Shown here piece after piece: positions 38,659 through 44,091 of a stretch of DNA of 64,000 nucleotides; position 1 is the first letter of the stretch, and each line of letters starts with the position of its first letter. Origin of the DNA: an uncultured Bryobacteraceae bacterium (lineage in GTDB: Bacteria; Acidobacteriota; Terriglobia; Bryobacterales; Bryobacteraceae); NCBI GenBank assembly GCA_938027685.1, contig CALJAM010000002.1:62001-126000 (forward strand), read 5' to 3'. The notes below the pieces were generated by a model. The model was given only the letters and a program-made list of their open reading frames with translations, was not told the origin of the DNA and did not search any database. The translations under genes and the position numbers were made by a program.

Positions 38659-39576
38659 TCAAACGCTCGCGGGCGCACCGGCCAGAATGCGGCTCACCAG
38701 TTCGACATTCTCGCGGATCTCGTCCTTGAAGCGCGGAAACATGCCCACGATGATCGCATCCTGCGGCTTGATGTTGGTGAGAACGAAGCGGAACGCGGCC
38801 TCCAGTTGCTCCGGATTGTTGATGTTGCGACCGGCGCCAAGCACTTTGAAGGCGAAGCAGGTCTTGCGCGTCTTGCGCACCACGGCGCACATGCGTTCGG
38901 GATCGCGCTCCATATAAATCTCGCCCACCGGTGCCTCGCCCAGCTCGCGCCTGGCTTCCTCCCGCGTCCGCGTCACACGATACATGCAGGTCATGTAGTA
39001 GTCCACATCCCAGCCGCGCTCTTCGATGTATTCGATCACGGCGGGATTGTGCGTGGAGACGCCCGCAGGGACGCCCGCGTCATGGACGGCCTTGGTGAAG
39101 TCGCGGACGACGTCCATCTGGCCGGCGCGGAAGCGCTCGTCGGTGCGGTTGCCGTGATGGGCGATGCCGATGGGATTCAGGCGGGCCACCTCCGGCAGCA
39201 GCTTCCAGTTCTTCATGAGCTCGAAATCGGCCAGCAGCAGCCAGTGCATTCGACCGCCTTCGGCCCGATAGCGCTTCAGGTCCTCGATGGTGGGATCGTT
39301 GTAGTGCACCTGCCAGGTGTTGATTCCGCACTGCTCCGCGCGATGGAGGATTTCCATGCGCCGGTCCTGCGTCATCCACTCCCGCATCATCTGGTCGAGG
39401 ATGCGGTTGAAGTGGGAGTAGCCGTAGAGCGGGTTGGATCCGATGATCAGGCGCGTGATCTCGACCTGGCCGAACTTGACCTTCGGCAGAGCCGGCGCCG
39501 TCGGGGACGTCGCTGTCGCAAGCGACCCGGCCGCGCCCAGAAATTGCCGGCGCGTGGCGAGACGGCTGTCGTTCAT
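38659..39576 (-). CDS. Tat-leader aldo/keto-reductase-like TIM-barrel protein
   Basis: It has 305 residues from the ATG giving MNDSRLATRRQFLGAAGS, a twin-arginine leader; an earlier in-frame start at 39612 is less likely. The body begins KFGQVEITRLIIGSNPLYGY, like aldo/keto-reductases, and has barrel-like blocks (CGINTWQVHYNDPTIEDL, IGIAHHGNRTDERFRAGQ, VPAGVSTHNPAVIEYI and TCFAFKVLGAGRNINNPEQ). I do not see the usual Asp-Tyr-Lys-His tetrad. An exact TATAAT lies nine bases before the ATG (39586-39591). Such proteins are common in Acidobacteriota and Planctomycetes, function unknown. Confidence 0.72.
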   Translation of the reverse strand: MNDSRLATRRQFLGAAGSLATATSPTAPALPKVKFGQVEITRLIIGSNPLYGYSHFNRILDQMMREWMTQDRRMEILHRAEQCGINTWQVHYNDPTIEDLKRYRAEGGRMHWLLLADFELMKNWKLLPEVARLNPIGIAHHGNRTDERFRAGQMDVVRDFTKAVHDAGVPAGVSTHNPAVIEYIEERGWDVDYYMTCMYRVTRTREEARRELGEAPVGEIYMERDPERMCAVVRKTRKTCFAFKVLGAGRNINNPEQLEAAFRFVLTNIKPQDAIIVGMFPRFKDEIRENVELVSRILAGAPASV

Positions 39577-39585
39577 AGCGAGGCA

Positions 39586-39591
39586 ATTATA
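39586..39591 (-). promoter_or_regulatory. Consensus minus-10 TATAAT before the aldo/keto-reductase-like gene
   Basis: The minus-strand TATAAT ends nine bases before the ATG at 39576, implying a leader of only a few bases and a start without Shine-Dalgarno. No clear minus-35. Confidence 0.45.
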
Positions 39592-39636
39592 ACATCGCCC
39601 TTCCCGGCTCACCGGGCCCGATCGCTCGATGCGGTT

Positions 39637-40890
39637 TCACGGCACCCGCGGTCGGCCTTCTTGGCGATCCTGGCGCCCTTTCACTGCGATGAGCGAGACT
39701 TGCTCGAGCATGGGCCACCGTCCCTCGGCGTCGGGCCTGCGCTCGACGGGCGGCAGGGGCTGCACGGTCGTGCGCGCGGGGAAAGCGCCGGGCGTGAAGT
39801 ACTGTGCGTAGACACGGTTCATGCGGTCGAAATCAGCGATGTCGTCCAGGTAAACGTTCGTCGCCACGACATGCGAGAAATCCAGGCCTGCCTCTTCCAG
39901 CCCGTCGAGCAGGTTGCGCATGGTTTGCCGAAGCTGGTGTTCCACCGTGGCCGCGTAGATCCCGCTGCGCGGGCCGGGAATGAAGCCGGATTTCGCCGAA
40001 CAGTAAAGCGTGTCGGCGGCGAACACGCAGGGGCTGGCCGTAGCGCTCGGCGCCATATTCTTGGGACGAATGGCGCGCCGTAGAGCCAGATCGCGCACCG
40101 CCACGCCGGTGAACTCGATGCCCGCGCCTTCCGGCAGCGTGGCCACCCGAATCGTGGCGCGTGCAGGCGTGTTGCCGAACTCGAAGCGCCGCGCGTAAAG
40201 CCGGTTCATCGTTTCCATCGGCACCGCGTCGGTCAAATACGGATTCACAAAGACCAGATGCCGGAAGTCGAGACCTGCGGCCGCCAGCACTTTGGCCATT
40301 TGCTCGAGCGCCGCCCCCACCTGCTCGCCTGCGTCTACGGGCACGCGCCCGCCTGCGCCTTCGCGGCCGAACACTCCGGAAACGTACACGCGATCGCCCG
40401 CTTCGACCGCCGCAGCGCAGAAGGGCGGCGCCGCCACGCCCGGAACGGAGACGCTCCTGCGGCGCGAGAGGTCGCCAATGGCCACCGCATTGATCTCGAT
40501 AGGAGTCCCGCCGGGCATCCGCGCGACGCCCACTACCGCGCACGCGGGCGGTTCGTGGGCGAAGTACTCGCGCCAGATCCCGGCCAGTTCGTCGTAGCGG
40601 CTTATCTCTTCCAGGTAGATTTGCGCGTAGACCACGTGTCGGAGCGTTAGGCCGGCTGCCTCCACCACCGCGCGCACGTTCTCGAGCGTTTGGCGGAGCC
40701 GGGAGCGGAAGCTCTCCGCCATGCTCCCGTCCGGTGCGCGGGCGCCCTGCCCCGAAACGTAGAGCCAATCTTCCGCAAGGACGCCGGGGCTGTAAGGGCC
40801 GATCGGCTCGACGCCTTGCGGGAAGATGCTTCGGCGCTCGGCGGCCGTAACCGGAATCAGCCCAGCAAGCAGAAACAAAGCAGCTCGCAT
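39637..40890 (-). CDS. Exported protein with three tandem RidA (YjgF/UK114) domains
   Basis: It has 417 residues. Signal peptide about 1-17 (ALFLLAGLIPVTAA). Three RidA-type domains at about 22-147, 155-270 and 280-405. Each shows the family pattern of a G-x-Y-S/C strand, a Q-T-L-E-N helix (RQTLENVRAVVEAAGL; LEQMAKVLAAAGLDF; RQTMRNLLDGLEEAGLDF) and an N/Q-x-Y-L-x-D strand. The PAR arginine that binds the imine substrate in RidA is present in domains 2 and 3 (TPARATI; FPARTTV) but is Cys in domain 1 (PPACAVV). RidA proteins are normally single-domain, cytoplasmic trimers that hydrolyse reactive enamines/imines; this fusion could mimic a trimer in one chain. It lies ten bases after the glycosidase-like gene. 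Confidence 0.85.
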   Translation of the reverse strand: MRAALFLLAGLIPVTAAERRSIFPQGVEPIGPYSPGVLAEDWLYVSGQGARAPDGSMAESFRSRLRQTLENVRAVVEAAGLTLRHVVYAQIYLEEISRYDELAGIWREYFAHEPPACAVVGVARMPGGTPIEINAVAIGDLSRRRSVSVPGVAAPPFCAAAVEAGDRVYVSGVFGREGAGGRVPVDAGEQVGAALEQMAKVLAAAGLDFRHLVFVNPYLTDAVPMETMNRLYARRFEFGNTPARATIRVATLPEGAGIEFTGVAVRDLALRRAIRPKNMAPSATASPCVFAADTLYCSAKSGFIPGPRSGIYAATVEHQLRQTMRNLLDGLEEAGLDFSHVVATNVYLDDIADFDRMNRVYAQYFTPGAFPARTTVQPLPPVERRPDAEGRWPMLEQVSLIAVKGRQDRQEGRPRVP

Positions 40891-40900
40891 AGCTGGAAGC

Positions 40901-43048
40901 TTACTCGATTACGAGCGCTTCGTACTCGCTCAGGTGCGGCACAGTCGCACGCAGGCGGCCGGCCCCGAAGCGGAACCTGAGCGCCTGCCCGCTCACCAGT
41001 GCCCGCACGCTCCGCACCGGAGCCTCGCGATCGAGTTCCACGATCACGTTGCTCAAGGGCACGATCCGCTGGATCGGCCGCGTCATTTCGCCCGTAAAAT
41101 TCACGAGATGGAGAATCCATCGACGGCCTCCTTCCTGCGAGCGCAGCACGACCTCGACCGAGCCCGGCGCGTTCTCCAGACGCACGGGCGAAGGGGCTAG
41201 TTGCCGAACAACGCTCGCGACAAGTTCCAGGTGCTCGGCGATATGCAGATTCTGGATGCTGTTGCCTAGATCGCCGGCGACGTAGACGACGCGCCCGCGT
41301 CCGGCGGCGTGCCAAACAAGAGCCGGATCCTCGGAGGCCTCGGGGATCCCGTCGTAGGGGCCTGCCATGGTCCTGGTGAAGTACAGAACGGCCCTGCCGC
41401 CGGCGGGCCGCACGCGCAGGTGATACGTCGTGGCCGGGAAGAGCCTGCGCCGCAGGTGGGACAGCAGCTCGGGAGCGCCCTGAGCGGGTTGGATGAAGTC
41501 CCATCGCTTCGGTCCCACGATCCTGCCGGCATCATGGACGCCGAAAACGTCCGCCAGCGCGAAGTCCGGGCGCCGCACGCCGGTCTCGTCGTAAAGCGAG
41601 GTTTCGAAAGTAGCCAGCAGATGGCCCCCCGCCTCGACGTAGCGGCGCAACCGCTCCGCCGTGCCCGAACTCATGCAGGCAACGTTGGGCAGTACGATGA
41701 GCGCGTAGCGGTCCGGCCTTGCGCTTTCGAGCGAAGCATCGTCTATGACGTCGAACGGCGTATGCGACCGCGCCAGGGCTTCCGCCAACCCGTTGAATTC
41801 GCCCTCCAGATTGCCCACCTCGCTGCGGGCCGGCACGCGGTCGACGTCGATCAGTTGCGCCTCGGCGCCCGTGTAGAAGCTCGCCGTCACGTCGGACCAC
41901 ACCAGCGCCACGCGCGCCTCGGACCGCGTGTTCAGGTAATAGCGGCCATGGCGCTCTACGAGGCGGTTCATGGCTTTGATCGCCTCGATCTCGGGCAAAT
42001 CCGCTTCGAAGCGGGAAAAGGCCAGCCAGACGTTCGCGCCGTTCGCGATCGAGTCCGCGTAGAGCAGTTTGAGTTCGGGCGCCGGGAGTATCGAGAAGGT
42101 CCAGGGCTTGTGGGCTGCCGCGGCGAAGATCACGCGGGGCTTGTCCGGCGCCTGGGTTTCGAGCAAACGTGCCGTGAGGCCCGGCTTCCATAGGGATGTG
42201 CGCGTGAGATCGCCGTAGATGAAACCTCCTTCGCTGCCCAGCAGGTCCTGTTCGGGAACCAGCACGCGGTTGAAACGGCCCGTGGCCCAGTTGCCGCCGC
42301 GTACGCCTCCGTTCATGTAGAAGGCGATTTGCGGGTTGGCGGCCTTGATCACCAGCCTGGCCTCGTGCAGGAAATCGGCCAGACTGCGGGCCTGGAACTC
42401 GAGCAGCGTAGCGAAGCCGCGCCCGCGCCGCTCGCGCTTGGATGGCATTTCGCCGCCGTACAGCCGCCGATACTTCTCCCGGCAGTGTCGGCAATAGCAG
42501 GTCTCGGCGTAAAAGACCGGGCCGTCGAAAAAGATGCCGTCAATCGGGTAGGCGCACAGGTCGCGCAGCAGCTGGAAGACCCATTCGCGCCAAGGGCTGT
42601 TCACGCACAGGGAAGTGCCCGTCTGGTAGATGCCCTCCAGAGGTTTGCCTGCCTCGGTGATCTGTACCCAATCCGGGTGGCGCGCGGCGAATTCCCGGTT
42701 GAACCAGTGCACGTTGAAGTAGATCATCACGCGCAGGCCGCGCTTTCGGGCTTCGGGGAGATATCTCTTCATGTAGTCTTCGTTCTGCCGCGCGGCGAGA
42801 CGCGTCGTGAAATAAAATCCCTCATCGTCAAGGCCCCTGCGATGATGCATGACGCCCAGATGCTCGCTGTTGAATCCCCATTCGATCTTCAGGGCCGCGG
42901 CGCGGGCGGGATCCGTCGCGTTGAGCGGTTCGAAGTCGGTGAGAAGGTGAACGATGCGCAGCGGTTCGCGTGTCCACCAGGGCGGAGGTTGACAGGGTAA
43001 CGGCAGGCAGGCTGCCAGGCCGGCCAGGATCAACACTGGGCGATACAT
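40901..43048 (-). CDS. Exported glycoside-hydrolase-like protein (beta-galactosidase/GHL6-like)
   Basis: It has 715 residues from the ATG giving MYRPVLILAGLAACLPLPCQ, a signal peptide, with GGGAGA upstream. The frame is open further upstream but that part lies within the glycosyltransferase gene. N-terminal TIM-barrel region about 30-400: WGFNSEHLGVMHHRRGL, MIYFNVHWFNREF, PIDGIFFDGPVF followed by CYCRHCREKY, and FYMNGGVRGGNW. A beta-galactosidase trimerisation-like/GATase domain at about 440-610 (YALIVLPNVACMSSGTAERL, then GGHLLATFETSLYDE). A C-terminal beta domain is about 620-715. Probably acts on surface or dietary glycans; the catalytic acids cannot be fixed by eye. Confidence 0.75.
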   Translation of the reverse strand: MYRPVLILAGLAACLPLPCQPPPWWTREPLRIVHLLTDFEPLNATDPARAAALKIEWGFNSEHLGVMHHRRGLDDEGFYFTTRLAARQNEDYMKRYLPEARKRGLRVMIYFNVHWFNREFAARHPDWVQITEAGKPLEGIYQTGTSLCVNSPWREWVFQLLRDLCAYPIDGIFFDGPVFYAETCYCRHCREKYRRLYGGEMPSKRERRGRGFATLLEFQARSLADFLHEARLVIKAANPQIAFYMNGGVRGGNWATGRFNRVLVPEQDLLGSEGGFIYGDLTRTSLWKPGLTARLLETQAPDKPRVIFAAAAHKPWTFSILPAPELKLLYADSIANGANVWLAFSRFEADLPEIEAIKAMNRLVERHGRYYLNTRSEARVALVWSDVTASFYTGAEAQLIDVDRVPARSEVGNLEGEFNGLAEALARSHTPFDVIDDASLESARPDRYALIVLPNVACMSSGTAERLRRYVEAGGHLLATFETSLYDETGVRRPDFALADVFGVHDAGRIVGPKRWDFIQPAQGAPELLSHLRRRLFPATTYHLRVRPAGGRAVLYFTRTMAGPYDGIPEASEDPALVWHAAGRGRVVYVAGDLGNSIQNLHIAEHLELVASVVRQLAPSPVRLENAPGSVEVVLRSQEGGRRWILHLVNFTGEMTRPIQRIVPLSNVIVELDREAPVRSVRALVSGQALRFRFGAGRLRATVPHLSEYEALVIE

Positions 43049-43080
43049 CGCGCATTCTCCCTTGCGGCGCAGTCGAATGC

Positions 43081-44091
43081 CTATTGTGGCCGAAGTTGCG
43101 GCTTGCCGGCCAGCAGAAAGAACAGGCGCCAGTAGGCGTCCCAGCCGGTCTGGCGTTGCAGGAGGCGAATTTCGTTCTCGCTTTCGGCGAGCAGCGCGGT
43201 CAGCCGGGCGGGATCGGCGGGCTCGGCGACAGCCCTCAAAGATTGAAACATTTTCAAGCCTTCCTGTTTGCCCTTCAGCCACGCTCGAAAAACGCCGCGA
43301 CGGAGGGCGAGCAGGCCCCAAAGCGCCTGCGCCGCCAGCACCGCGCGACCGAAGCGCCGCTTCCAGTCCGGCGGATAGTGCTTCGCCACCAGCAGGAGCT
43401 GATTGCGCGCCATCAGCCGCACGCTGGTCGGGCTCCAGCGGCCCAGGGTCGCGCTGCCCGCATGGCAGCCCCGCGCCTGGGGGACGTAAACGCCCTCGAG
43501 TCCGCGCAGGGCGCAGCGCAGGCAGAACTCCGCGTCTTCCATGTACGACTCGAAGCGCTCCTCCAGCGGTCCGGCGATTTCGAACAACTCGCGGCGAAAC
43601 AGGGTGGCGGCGAAGCCGCTGAAACGGATCCTCCGCGGGCGATCCCAAAGGGGACCGTCCGCGCGGCCTGCACCGGCACGCCAGGCCGTCGCACCGCGGC
43701 AGACGAGATCGAAGGTTCCGTCCAGCCGATTGGGTTCCCCCAGGCGAAAGAGCTTGCCGCAGGCGAACCAGGCGCGTTGCGCCGCAGCCGCTTCGACGAG
43801 CCGCTCCAGCCAATCCCGCTCCGGCTCCACGTCATTGTTGAGCAGCGCGACCCATTCCCCGTAACACGCCCGCAAGCCCGCGTTCACCGCGGCGGCGAAG
43901 CCCCGATGGCGCGCCAGACGGACCACCTCCGCGCCCAGCCGGGCGGCTGCTTCCGCGCTGCCGTCCGCGGAGCCGTCATCGGCGACCACCACCTGCGCGG
44001 GAGCGAGCGTCTGCTCCCGCAAGCGGACCAGCAGCGATTCCAGACGGGCCCGTCCGTTCCAGTTCGGGATCAGGACGCTGACCCGTCGCAT
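43081..44091 (-). CDS. Family 2 glycosyltransferase (rhamnosyltransferase-like)
   Basis: It has 336 residues from the ATG giving MRRVSVLIPNWNGRARL, two bases after the stop of the upstream glycosyltransferase gene. GT-A fold landmarks: VVVADDGSADGS near residue 40, RGFAAAVNAGL, the DxD-like LLNNDVEPERDW near 95, and SYMEDAEFCLRCALRG near 200. The hydrophobic patch near 255-275 may touch the membrane. It would add a sugar to a lipid-linked or polysaccharide acceptor in the surface-glycan block. It is 32 bases upstream of the glycosidase-like gene. Confidence 0.88.
   Translation of the reverse strand: MRRVSVLIPNWNGRARLESLLVRLREQTLAPAQVVVADDGSADGSAEAAARLGAEVVRLARHRGFAAAVNAGLRACYGEWVALLNNDVEPERDWLERLVEAAAAQRAWFACGKLFRLGEPNRLDGTFDLVCRGATAWRAGAGRADGPLWDRPRRIRFSGFAATLFRRELFEIAGPLEERFESYMEDAEFCLRCALRGLEGVYVPQARGCHAGSATLGRWSPTSVRLMARNQLLLVAKHYPPDWKRRFGRAVLAAQALWGLLALRRGVFRAWLKGKQEGLKMFQSLRAVAEPADPARLTALLAESENEIRLLQRQTGWDAYWRLFFLLAGKPQLRPQ

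Follow-up and report, generated by a model that had tools for sequence, protein, structure and literature searches.

RidA proteins are usually regarded as a protection, in the cytoplasm, from enamines formed by PLP enzymes. The enamines or imines that some PLP enzymes set free are hydrolysed by RidA, and in salmon RidA-1 the N-terminal segment of a monomer is paired with the C-terminal segment of the adjacent monomer (PMC7311433). In TdcF, the pocket consists of Tyr17, Gly31, Asn56, Asn88, Arg105, Pro114 and Glu120; Glu120 bonds across the interface to residue 107, Gly31 packs on Glu120 and Asn88 orients Arg105 (PMC1884159). Proteins with three RidA domains, such as EF_0115 of Enterococcus faecalis, have been described as 3x-RidA and are presumed to be covalent trimers (Niehaus 2015, PMC4433059); in a term search of the main text of that paper, the words signal, periplasm and secreted were absent. 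Growth on an N-acetylated amino-sugar acid requires the RidA-family protein OngD, which is clustered with a PLP deaminase and did not itself deaminate the amino-sugar acid in vitro (PMC9537276). PvdN and PtaA are PLP enzymes that are sent to the periplasm in folded form by the Tat system (PMC6206403).

The DNA analysed here (the window, a stretch of 64,000 nucleotides from an uncultured Bryobacteraceae bacterium) carries on its minus strand a gene for a protein of 417 aa with an ATG start (39637..40890). The protein was found in three stretches by both the Pfam model PF01042 (E 3.3e-67, 224.4 bits; cut-off 27.3) and the NCBIfam model TIGR00004 (213.3 bits compared to a cut-off of 106.25), both scores lying above the cut-offs of these RidA models. 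The Pfam matches to domains 1, 2 and 3 cover positions 40477-40809, 40096-40431 and 39760-40050, respectively; for domain 3 the lower end was set to 39676 based on the alignment and the structural model. The architecture is thus that of a 3x-RidA with tandem-fused domains rather than a homotrimer of subunits of about 125 aa. According to the alignment, the arginine of the PAR motif, corresponding to Arg105 of TdcF, is present in domain 2 as Arg244 (codon at 40159..40161, minus strand) and in domain 3 as Arg373 (39772..39774, minus strand), and is replaced in domain 1 by Cys117 (40540..40542, minus strand). In these points, i.e. three RidA domains in one chain and an arginine kept in two of them, the preliminary description of the locus proved correct.

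A full-length copy of the protein was found by whole-protein search in 26 of the 61 genomes searched, the window's own included; 25 copies matched at E 5.3e-99 or better and one (G006) was matched in two pieces of one frame. The protein occurs in 20 of 37 genomes of the window's family and is patchy class-wide, with matches at E 1e-90 or better in 7 of 121 genomes, again counting the window's own. Since the copies of the two other genomes of the genus are 81% and 77% identical to the window protein and 23 further relatives 46-64%, the open reading frame is not a product of chance. These 26 orthologues (set A) are the fairer set for assessing conservation. A second set (set B, n=81) consists of the window protein and public loci from a pattern scan that covered 84,980 species with one genome per species and in which 151 relatives were confirmed and the best 80 kept; the 80 loci do not equal 80 genomes (L059 and L063 are from one assembly) and overlap with set A, many being the same genes. 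The loci of set B were fetched with two domain-3 peptide patterns, NLLD[GN]LEE and one ending in CSAK, and the invariance of domain 3 in this set is therefore partly by construction. The CSAK pattern is present in 70 of the best 80 of 151 loci, the other 10 keeping both cysteines and Lys300, and set A bears out the same conservation pattern as set B. All of the best 80 of 151 loci have acidobacterial titles (Bryobacterales, Terriglobia, Sulfotelmatobacter etc.) except L047, which is labelled Acidimicrobiia, and the closest named relatives among them are two Bryobacteraceae MAGs. Judging from these sequences, the triple-RidA protein is an acidobacterial family. In a tree of the individual domains of 15 hand-chosen orthologues out of the 81, the domains grouped by position (support of 1.0 for domain 3, 0.99 for domain 2 and 0.6 for domain 1); thus, the fusion probably predates the spread of the family.

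Related genes were also seen outside this family. The same genome carries a second, much more diverged triple-RidA gene (L009:3831-5051, plus strand; G000:C2:47830-49050) with PF01042 in three stretches and a signal-like N-terminus, which, by eye, adjoins a GH3-like beta-glucosidase gene. A single-domain RidA protein of this genome (L003; G000:C16:26368-26700) likewise has a signal-like N-terminus and groups with domain 2 (support 0.77). Another triple-RidA family, with lipoprotein-like N-termini, occurs in a different family of the same order (L036:1108-2289 and L037-L039), and in L036, L037 and L039 the gene is followed by a deoxyhypusine synthase-like gene, again judged by eye.

The N-terminus of the window protein (MRAALFLLAGLIPVTAAE; residues 1-17, 40840..40890, minus strand) is signal-peptide-like. 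By a simple Kyte-Doolittle rule, a hydrophobic N-terminal extension is present in 76 of the 81 proteins of set B (window and best 80 of 151 loci), a count that is raised by the start codons having been picked by a script favouring the start of the query. Of the five failing the rule, L091 and L109 are just below the threshold and L045, L068 and L104 clearly so. For single RidA proteins, hydrophobicity was taken over another part of the chain, so that they are no clean control for this rule. The protein thus appears to be exported, as had been proposed from the window alone, and the chain would leave the cytoplasm via a Sec-type signal.

An AlphaFold2 model built from the 26 orthologues reached a pLDDT of 90.0 and a pTM of 0.90. 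The best solved whole-chain match to this model was the chorismatase 4bps (Z 26.1, rmsd 2.8, 285 residues), and the chorismatases 5a3k and 5ag3 gave a Z of 25.4, compared to 14.8-17.4 for single RidA-type chains among the matches listed. The model thus has the pseudotrimeric single-chain fold of the chorismatases (FkbO/Hyg5/XanB2 type) and predicts the covalent-trimer packing presumed for 3x-RidA. The suggestion of the preliminary description that the three domains form a one-chain trimer is well supported by this prediction. The FIST domain of FBXO22 was also aligned with the model, with a Z of 14.6-15.0 over 245-260 residues, and we therefore considered a non-catalytic, FIST-domain-like sensor or binding protein for an acidic ligand in the periplasm. 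This role was not adopted and is regarded as very improbable, since the arginine and the pocket residues are conserved and the few annotated neighbour clusters include no signalling family.

From the contacts published for TdcF, we infer that one subunit should contribute the Tyr/Gly/Glu half of a RidA site and another subunit the Arg/Asn88 half. As the N-terminal segment of RidA-1 should adjoin the start of the Arg strand, the arginine of domain n would face the Tyr half of domain n+1. The exported chain would accordingly fold as a pseudotrimer with three non-identical inter-domain sites, designated 1/2, 2/3 and 3/1 below. Domain 1 (40477..40809, minus strand) has Tyr33, Gly47, Asn71 and Glu132 in addition to Cys117; domain 2 (40096..40431, minus strand) keeps Arg244, Asn229 and Pro253 and has lost the residues at the Tyr17 and Asn56 positions; in domain 3 (39676..40050, minus strand), the loop TASPC...CSAKSGFIPG is remodelled and the last strand is preceded by an insertion. 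Together, domains 1 and 3 supply residues for all pocket positions of TdcF except Pro114, which could not be assigned in domain 3 (Tyr33, Gly47, Asn71, Glu132, Arg373 and Asn358); several of these are missing from the other two sites.

At site 3/1, Arg373 is kept in 26/26 proteins of set A and 70/81 of set B, i.e. it is lost in 11/81. The corresponding counts for sets A and B are 25/26 (Asp in one) and 60/81 (Asp in 16) for Asn358, 25/26 and 65/81 for Tyr33, 23/26 and 77/81 for Gly47, 26/26 and 75/81 for Asn71, and 22/26 and 60/81 for Glu132. At site 2/3, Arg244 is invariant (26/26 and 81/81), Asn229 is found in 24/26 (Asp in 2) and 74/81 (Asp in 6), and Pro253 in 26/26 and 80/81. From the side of domain 3, Cys288, Cys297 and Ser298 (26/26 and 81/81 each), Lys300 (25/26 and 81/81) and Asn326 (26/26 and 80/81) are near-invariant, the second figure in each case referring to the pattern-selected set B. 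Sites 3/1 and 2/3 are equally conserved in set A. At site 1/2, residue 117 is Arg in 19, Cys in 3, Leu in 2, Ala in one and Gly in one of the 26 proteins of set A, and Arg in 75, Cys in 3, Leu in 2 and Gln in one of the 81 proteins of set B. Asn103 is kept in 10/26 and 50/81, Gly172 in 20/26 and 50/81 and Glu259 in 18/26 and 67/81, and a Tyr at position 158 (3/26 and 7/81) or an Asn at position 197 (6/26 and 4/81) is rare. These counts indicate that sites 2/3 and 3/1 are kept and that site 1/2, into which the missing arginine falls, is weak; judged by conservation, this site is degenerate in the family. The expectation that one of three interfaces is dead or changed is thereby probably correct and can be sharpened, in that the arginine has been lost to Cys, Leu, Ala, Gly or Gln and the same site is also degenerate in its domain-2 half.

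The positions of Tyr17 and Gly31 in domain 3 are occupied by Ala in 25/26 proteins of set A each, and the chemistry of site 2/3 may therefore not be imine hydrolysis. Together with the chorismatase as best whole-chain match, this favours an explanation in which the fold was recruited to another reaction, as in chorismatase, with site 2/3 (Arg244, Lys300, Gln/Glu397 and the remodelled loop) acting on a sugar acid, a lactone or an aromatic acid instead of imines. This explanation is doubtful given that RidA residues are kept at site 3/1 in most of the proteins and that no chorismatase family is among the Pfam and NCBIfam matches or among the best 60 of 64 PDB matches. A chorismatase identity by sequence was considered and not adopted.

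We also assessed the coupling between residues of the putative sites in set B. Arg373 and Tyr33 are both lost in 10 proteins and both kept in 64, with 6 proteins lacking only the Tyr and one only the Arg (p 4e-8), which fits one shared site; for the Asn88 position of domain 3 and Glu132, the p value was 2e-10. When losses were placed on the tree, two of four Arg373 losses coincided with Tyr33 losses (p 0.06), and the p value for the Asn88 position and Glu132 was 0.14. A rival pairing of Arg373 with the Gly31 position of domain 2 gave p values of 2e-4 at the tips and 0.46 on the tree. The lowest values among the 13 pairs tested on the tree, uncorrected for 13 tests, were obtained for the Asn88 position of domain 1 with the Gly31 position of domain 2 (p 0.03) and for Arg373 with Glu132 (p 0.04), and both pairs agree with the inferred ring direction. 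As the coupling is strong at the tips and weak on the tree, we did not rely on it as evidence, and the proposed ring direction is based on contacts from the literature, on how the residues are conserved and on a pair of cysteines.

The cysteines of this pair are Cys117 and Cys158, the latter at the Tyr17 position of domain 2 (codon at 40417..40419, minus strand). They co-occur in three sequences, one from each genome of the window's genus (3/3), and may go back to a single event in one lineage. In a search of 237 genomes of the family at E 1e-170, a threshold that leaves more distant copies out of account, only these three genomes passed. Since positions 117 and 158 would lie opposite one another in site 1/2, the simple guess is a disulfide between the two domains, and the pair is a possible staple. 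The cysteine in domain 1 was rejected as a trait of the family because it is confined to one genus (3/26 in set A and 3/81 in set B). Between residues 20 and 405, set B has cysteines at eight positions: 288 and 297 (all proteins), 68 (34), 173 (4), 117 and 158 (3 each), and 235 and 377 (one each). In set A, there are ten such positions, with 288 and 297 in all 26 proteins, 68 in 13, 117 and 158 in 3, 89, 135 and 173 in 2, and 235 and 341 in one. The two invariant cysteines (40000..40029, minus strand) are borne by strands 288-291 and 294-300 of the AlphaFold2 model; they are likely cross-strand neighbours in a hairpin of domain 3 and form a candidate disulfide.

The gene 10 bp upstream of the triple-RidA gene in the window, on the same strand (40901..43171, minus strand), codes for a GHL6/GH42-like protein according to Pfam, and its cluster comprises only the window and L040. 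The downstream gene (38659..39612, minus strand), 24 bp away, codes for a protein of 317 aa with an RR-type (twin-arginine-like) N-terminus and no Pfam match; its cluster is found at most three genes downstream of the triple-RidA gene in 3/3 loci of the genus. Sugar-active genes, to which the preliminary description had drawn attention, are indeed present in the window (the GHL6-like protein and glycosyltransferases, by Pfam), but this neighbourhood recurs mainly in the loci of the genus and is not the commonest context of the family.

We surveyed the neighbours in the best 80 of 151 loci, to which all following counts of loci refer, with at least 1 kb available upstream in 77 and downstream in 76 of them, and named the neighbour clusters from representatives. 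The commonest neighbour was a PLP enzyme, which was adjacent on the same strand at less than 150 bp in 43/80 loci: a DgaE-like protein in 35/80 (32 upstream, 3 downstream) and a class I/II aminotransferase in 8/80. As the loci are related, the 43 cases are not independent events; both gene orders were seen. Given that the window's genome has two DgaE-like genes, we estimate the probability of chance adjacency at well below 1%. A DgaE-like representative scored 158.5 bits with TIGR01437, below the cut-off of 385.3, and the Pfam model SelA was just above its cut-off in one representative and below it in another. The aminotransferase representative matched PF00155 (E 5e-46), with the PRK09105 and PtaA models below their cut-offs. 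A twin-arginine-like motif was found in 37/41 members of the DgaE-like cluster and 6/8 of the aminotransferase cluster, using a lax pattern. The PLP-lysine motif SGGK is present in 40/41 DgaE-like members, the exception being a fragment of 101 aa. In these 40 proteins (e.g. L115:6558-7847), the position three residues beyond the PLP lysine (SGGKxxR) varies, with Arg in 20, Cys in 12, Gly in 5 and Ala, Ser or Gln in the other 3, which possibly reflects a change in substrate binding.

None of the three loci of the genus has a DgaE-like or aminotransferase gene adjoining the triple-RidA gene. Another contig of the window's genome codes for a DgaE-like protein of 535 aa. It shares 59-61% identity with the proteins encoded next to the Rid gene in L060, L072 and L078 and with the one encoded a gene away from it in L056. 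Further neighbours were a cytochrome c gene immediately upstream in five loci and, at a distance of up to three genes, members of the enolase superfamily (6 loci) and Amidohydro_2 genes (3 loci), and in 2/80 loci (L095:6467-8524 and L103:7989-10067) an SMP-30/gluconolactonase domain (PF08450) is fused in frame to the triple RidA. The recruitment to another reaction gains from this fusion and from the enolase-superfamily and Amidohydro_2 genes, but has to contend with a PLP enzyme as the commonest adjacent neighbour, which points back to imine/enamine chemistry. This also modifies the proposal of the preliminary description that the protein has a job other than clearing 2-aminoacrylate: the chemistry may well be of the same kind, while the location is probably the periplasm and the substrates are probably other than the products of serine/threonine dehydratases.

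Our main reading, to which we assign a probability of roughly one half, is that the protein is an exported single-chain RidA trimer, i.e. a variant of 3x-RidA, acting as a periplasmic imine/enamine hydrolase that serves exported PLP enzymes. Based on the precedents of PvdN and PtaA, the chemistry of RidA and OngD, we propose that the triple Rid finishes deamination outside the cytoplasm at sites 2/3 and 3/1. Site 2/3 would work with Arg244 and the near-invariant, non-RidA-like loop of domain 3, and the near-canonical site 3/1 with Arg373, Tyr33, Gly47, Asn71 and Glu132; site 1/2 would be decaying and, in the window's genus, may be closed by a disulfide between Cys117 and Cys158. The reaction would most likely be the hydrolysis of imine or enamine products from Tat-exported PLP lyases and aminotransferases, with release of ammonia and of 2-keto acids or 2-keto-3-deoxy sugar acids, the identity of the substrate being a guess. 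For the family, this reading is stronger than for the window's own copy, which has no linked PLP gene. In 37/80 loci, neither of the two PLP clusters is adjacent, and the other neighbours are mostly unannotated. These loci, the TIGR00004 matches above cut-off in three stretches and the presence of L003, a single-domain RidA of this genome whose N-terminus is signal-like, would suit an ordinary RidA activity outside the cytoplasm, i.e. a non-specific imine scavenger with incidental neighbours; we consider this unlikely in view of the PLP adjacency in 43/80 loci in both orders and of the near-invariant non-RidA loop in domain 3. A more detailed version of the periplasmic hydrolase, which we put forward tentatively and would not bet on, is a periplasmic module linking a Tat-exported PLP lyase or aminotransferase to the exported Rid pseudotrimer, which would receive from it imines or enamines of amino-sugar acids. 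In this module, a new, cysteine-braced site (Arg244 and the TASPC...CSAK loop of domain 3) would stand beside a canonical one, and the Arg-Tyr pair of the spare site would have been turned into a Cys-Cys staple in one genus.

If correct, an exported Rid protein together with exported PLP enzymes would move RidA chemistry to the periplasm. The protein would also be a natural one-chain trimer in which each of the three sites can be mutated alone, and an example of a fused trimer that specialises one site and retires another. The fused architecture is already known as 3x-RidA (PMC4433059). Export, the remodelled and asymmetric sites, the cysteines and the PLP linkage are apparently undescribed: in the open-licence literature, we found nothing on an exported triple RidA or a link between Rid and DgaE, and the term 3x-RidA in Niehaus 2015 only; subscription papers may differ. 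PvdN and PtaA resemble the proposed partners as Tat-exported periplasmic PLP enzymes, but they function in pyoverdine tailoring, and a Rid partner is not mentioned in the account consulted (PMC6206403). In the case of OngD, too, a Rid protein goes together with a PLP enzyme that deaminates an amino-sugar acid, but OngD has a single domain of 127 aa, and the PLP enzyme, OngC, is of fold-type III and predicted to be cytoplasmic (PMC9537276). The 3x-RidA proteins share with the acidobacterial protein the three RidA domains in one chain, whereas we found no mention of asymmetric sites, of cysteines in domain 3 or of a PLP partner in the text consulted (PMC4433059). With the chorismatases, the protein shares the arrangement of three RidA-like domains as a pseudotrimer within a single chain (Z 26.1 over 285 residues), at an identity of 12-13% and with no sequence-family match seen. 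Compared to the RidA/TdcF homotrimers, the acidobacterial protein has the same domain fold (Z 14.8-17.4 among the matches listed) and, in site 3/1, the same pocket residues, but it is fused, apparently exported and equipped with sites that are not equivalent.
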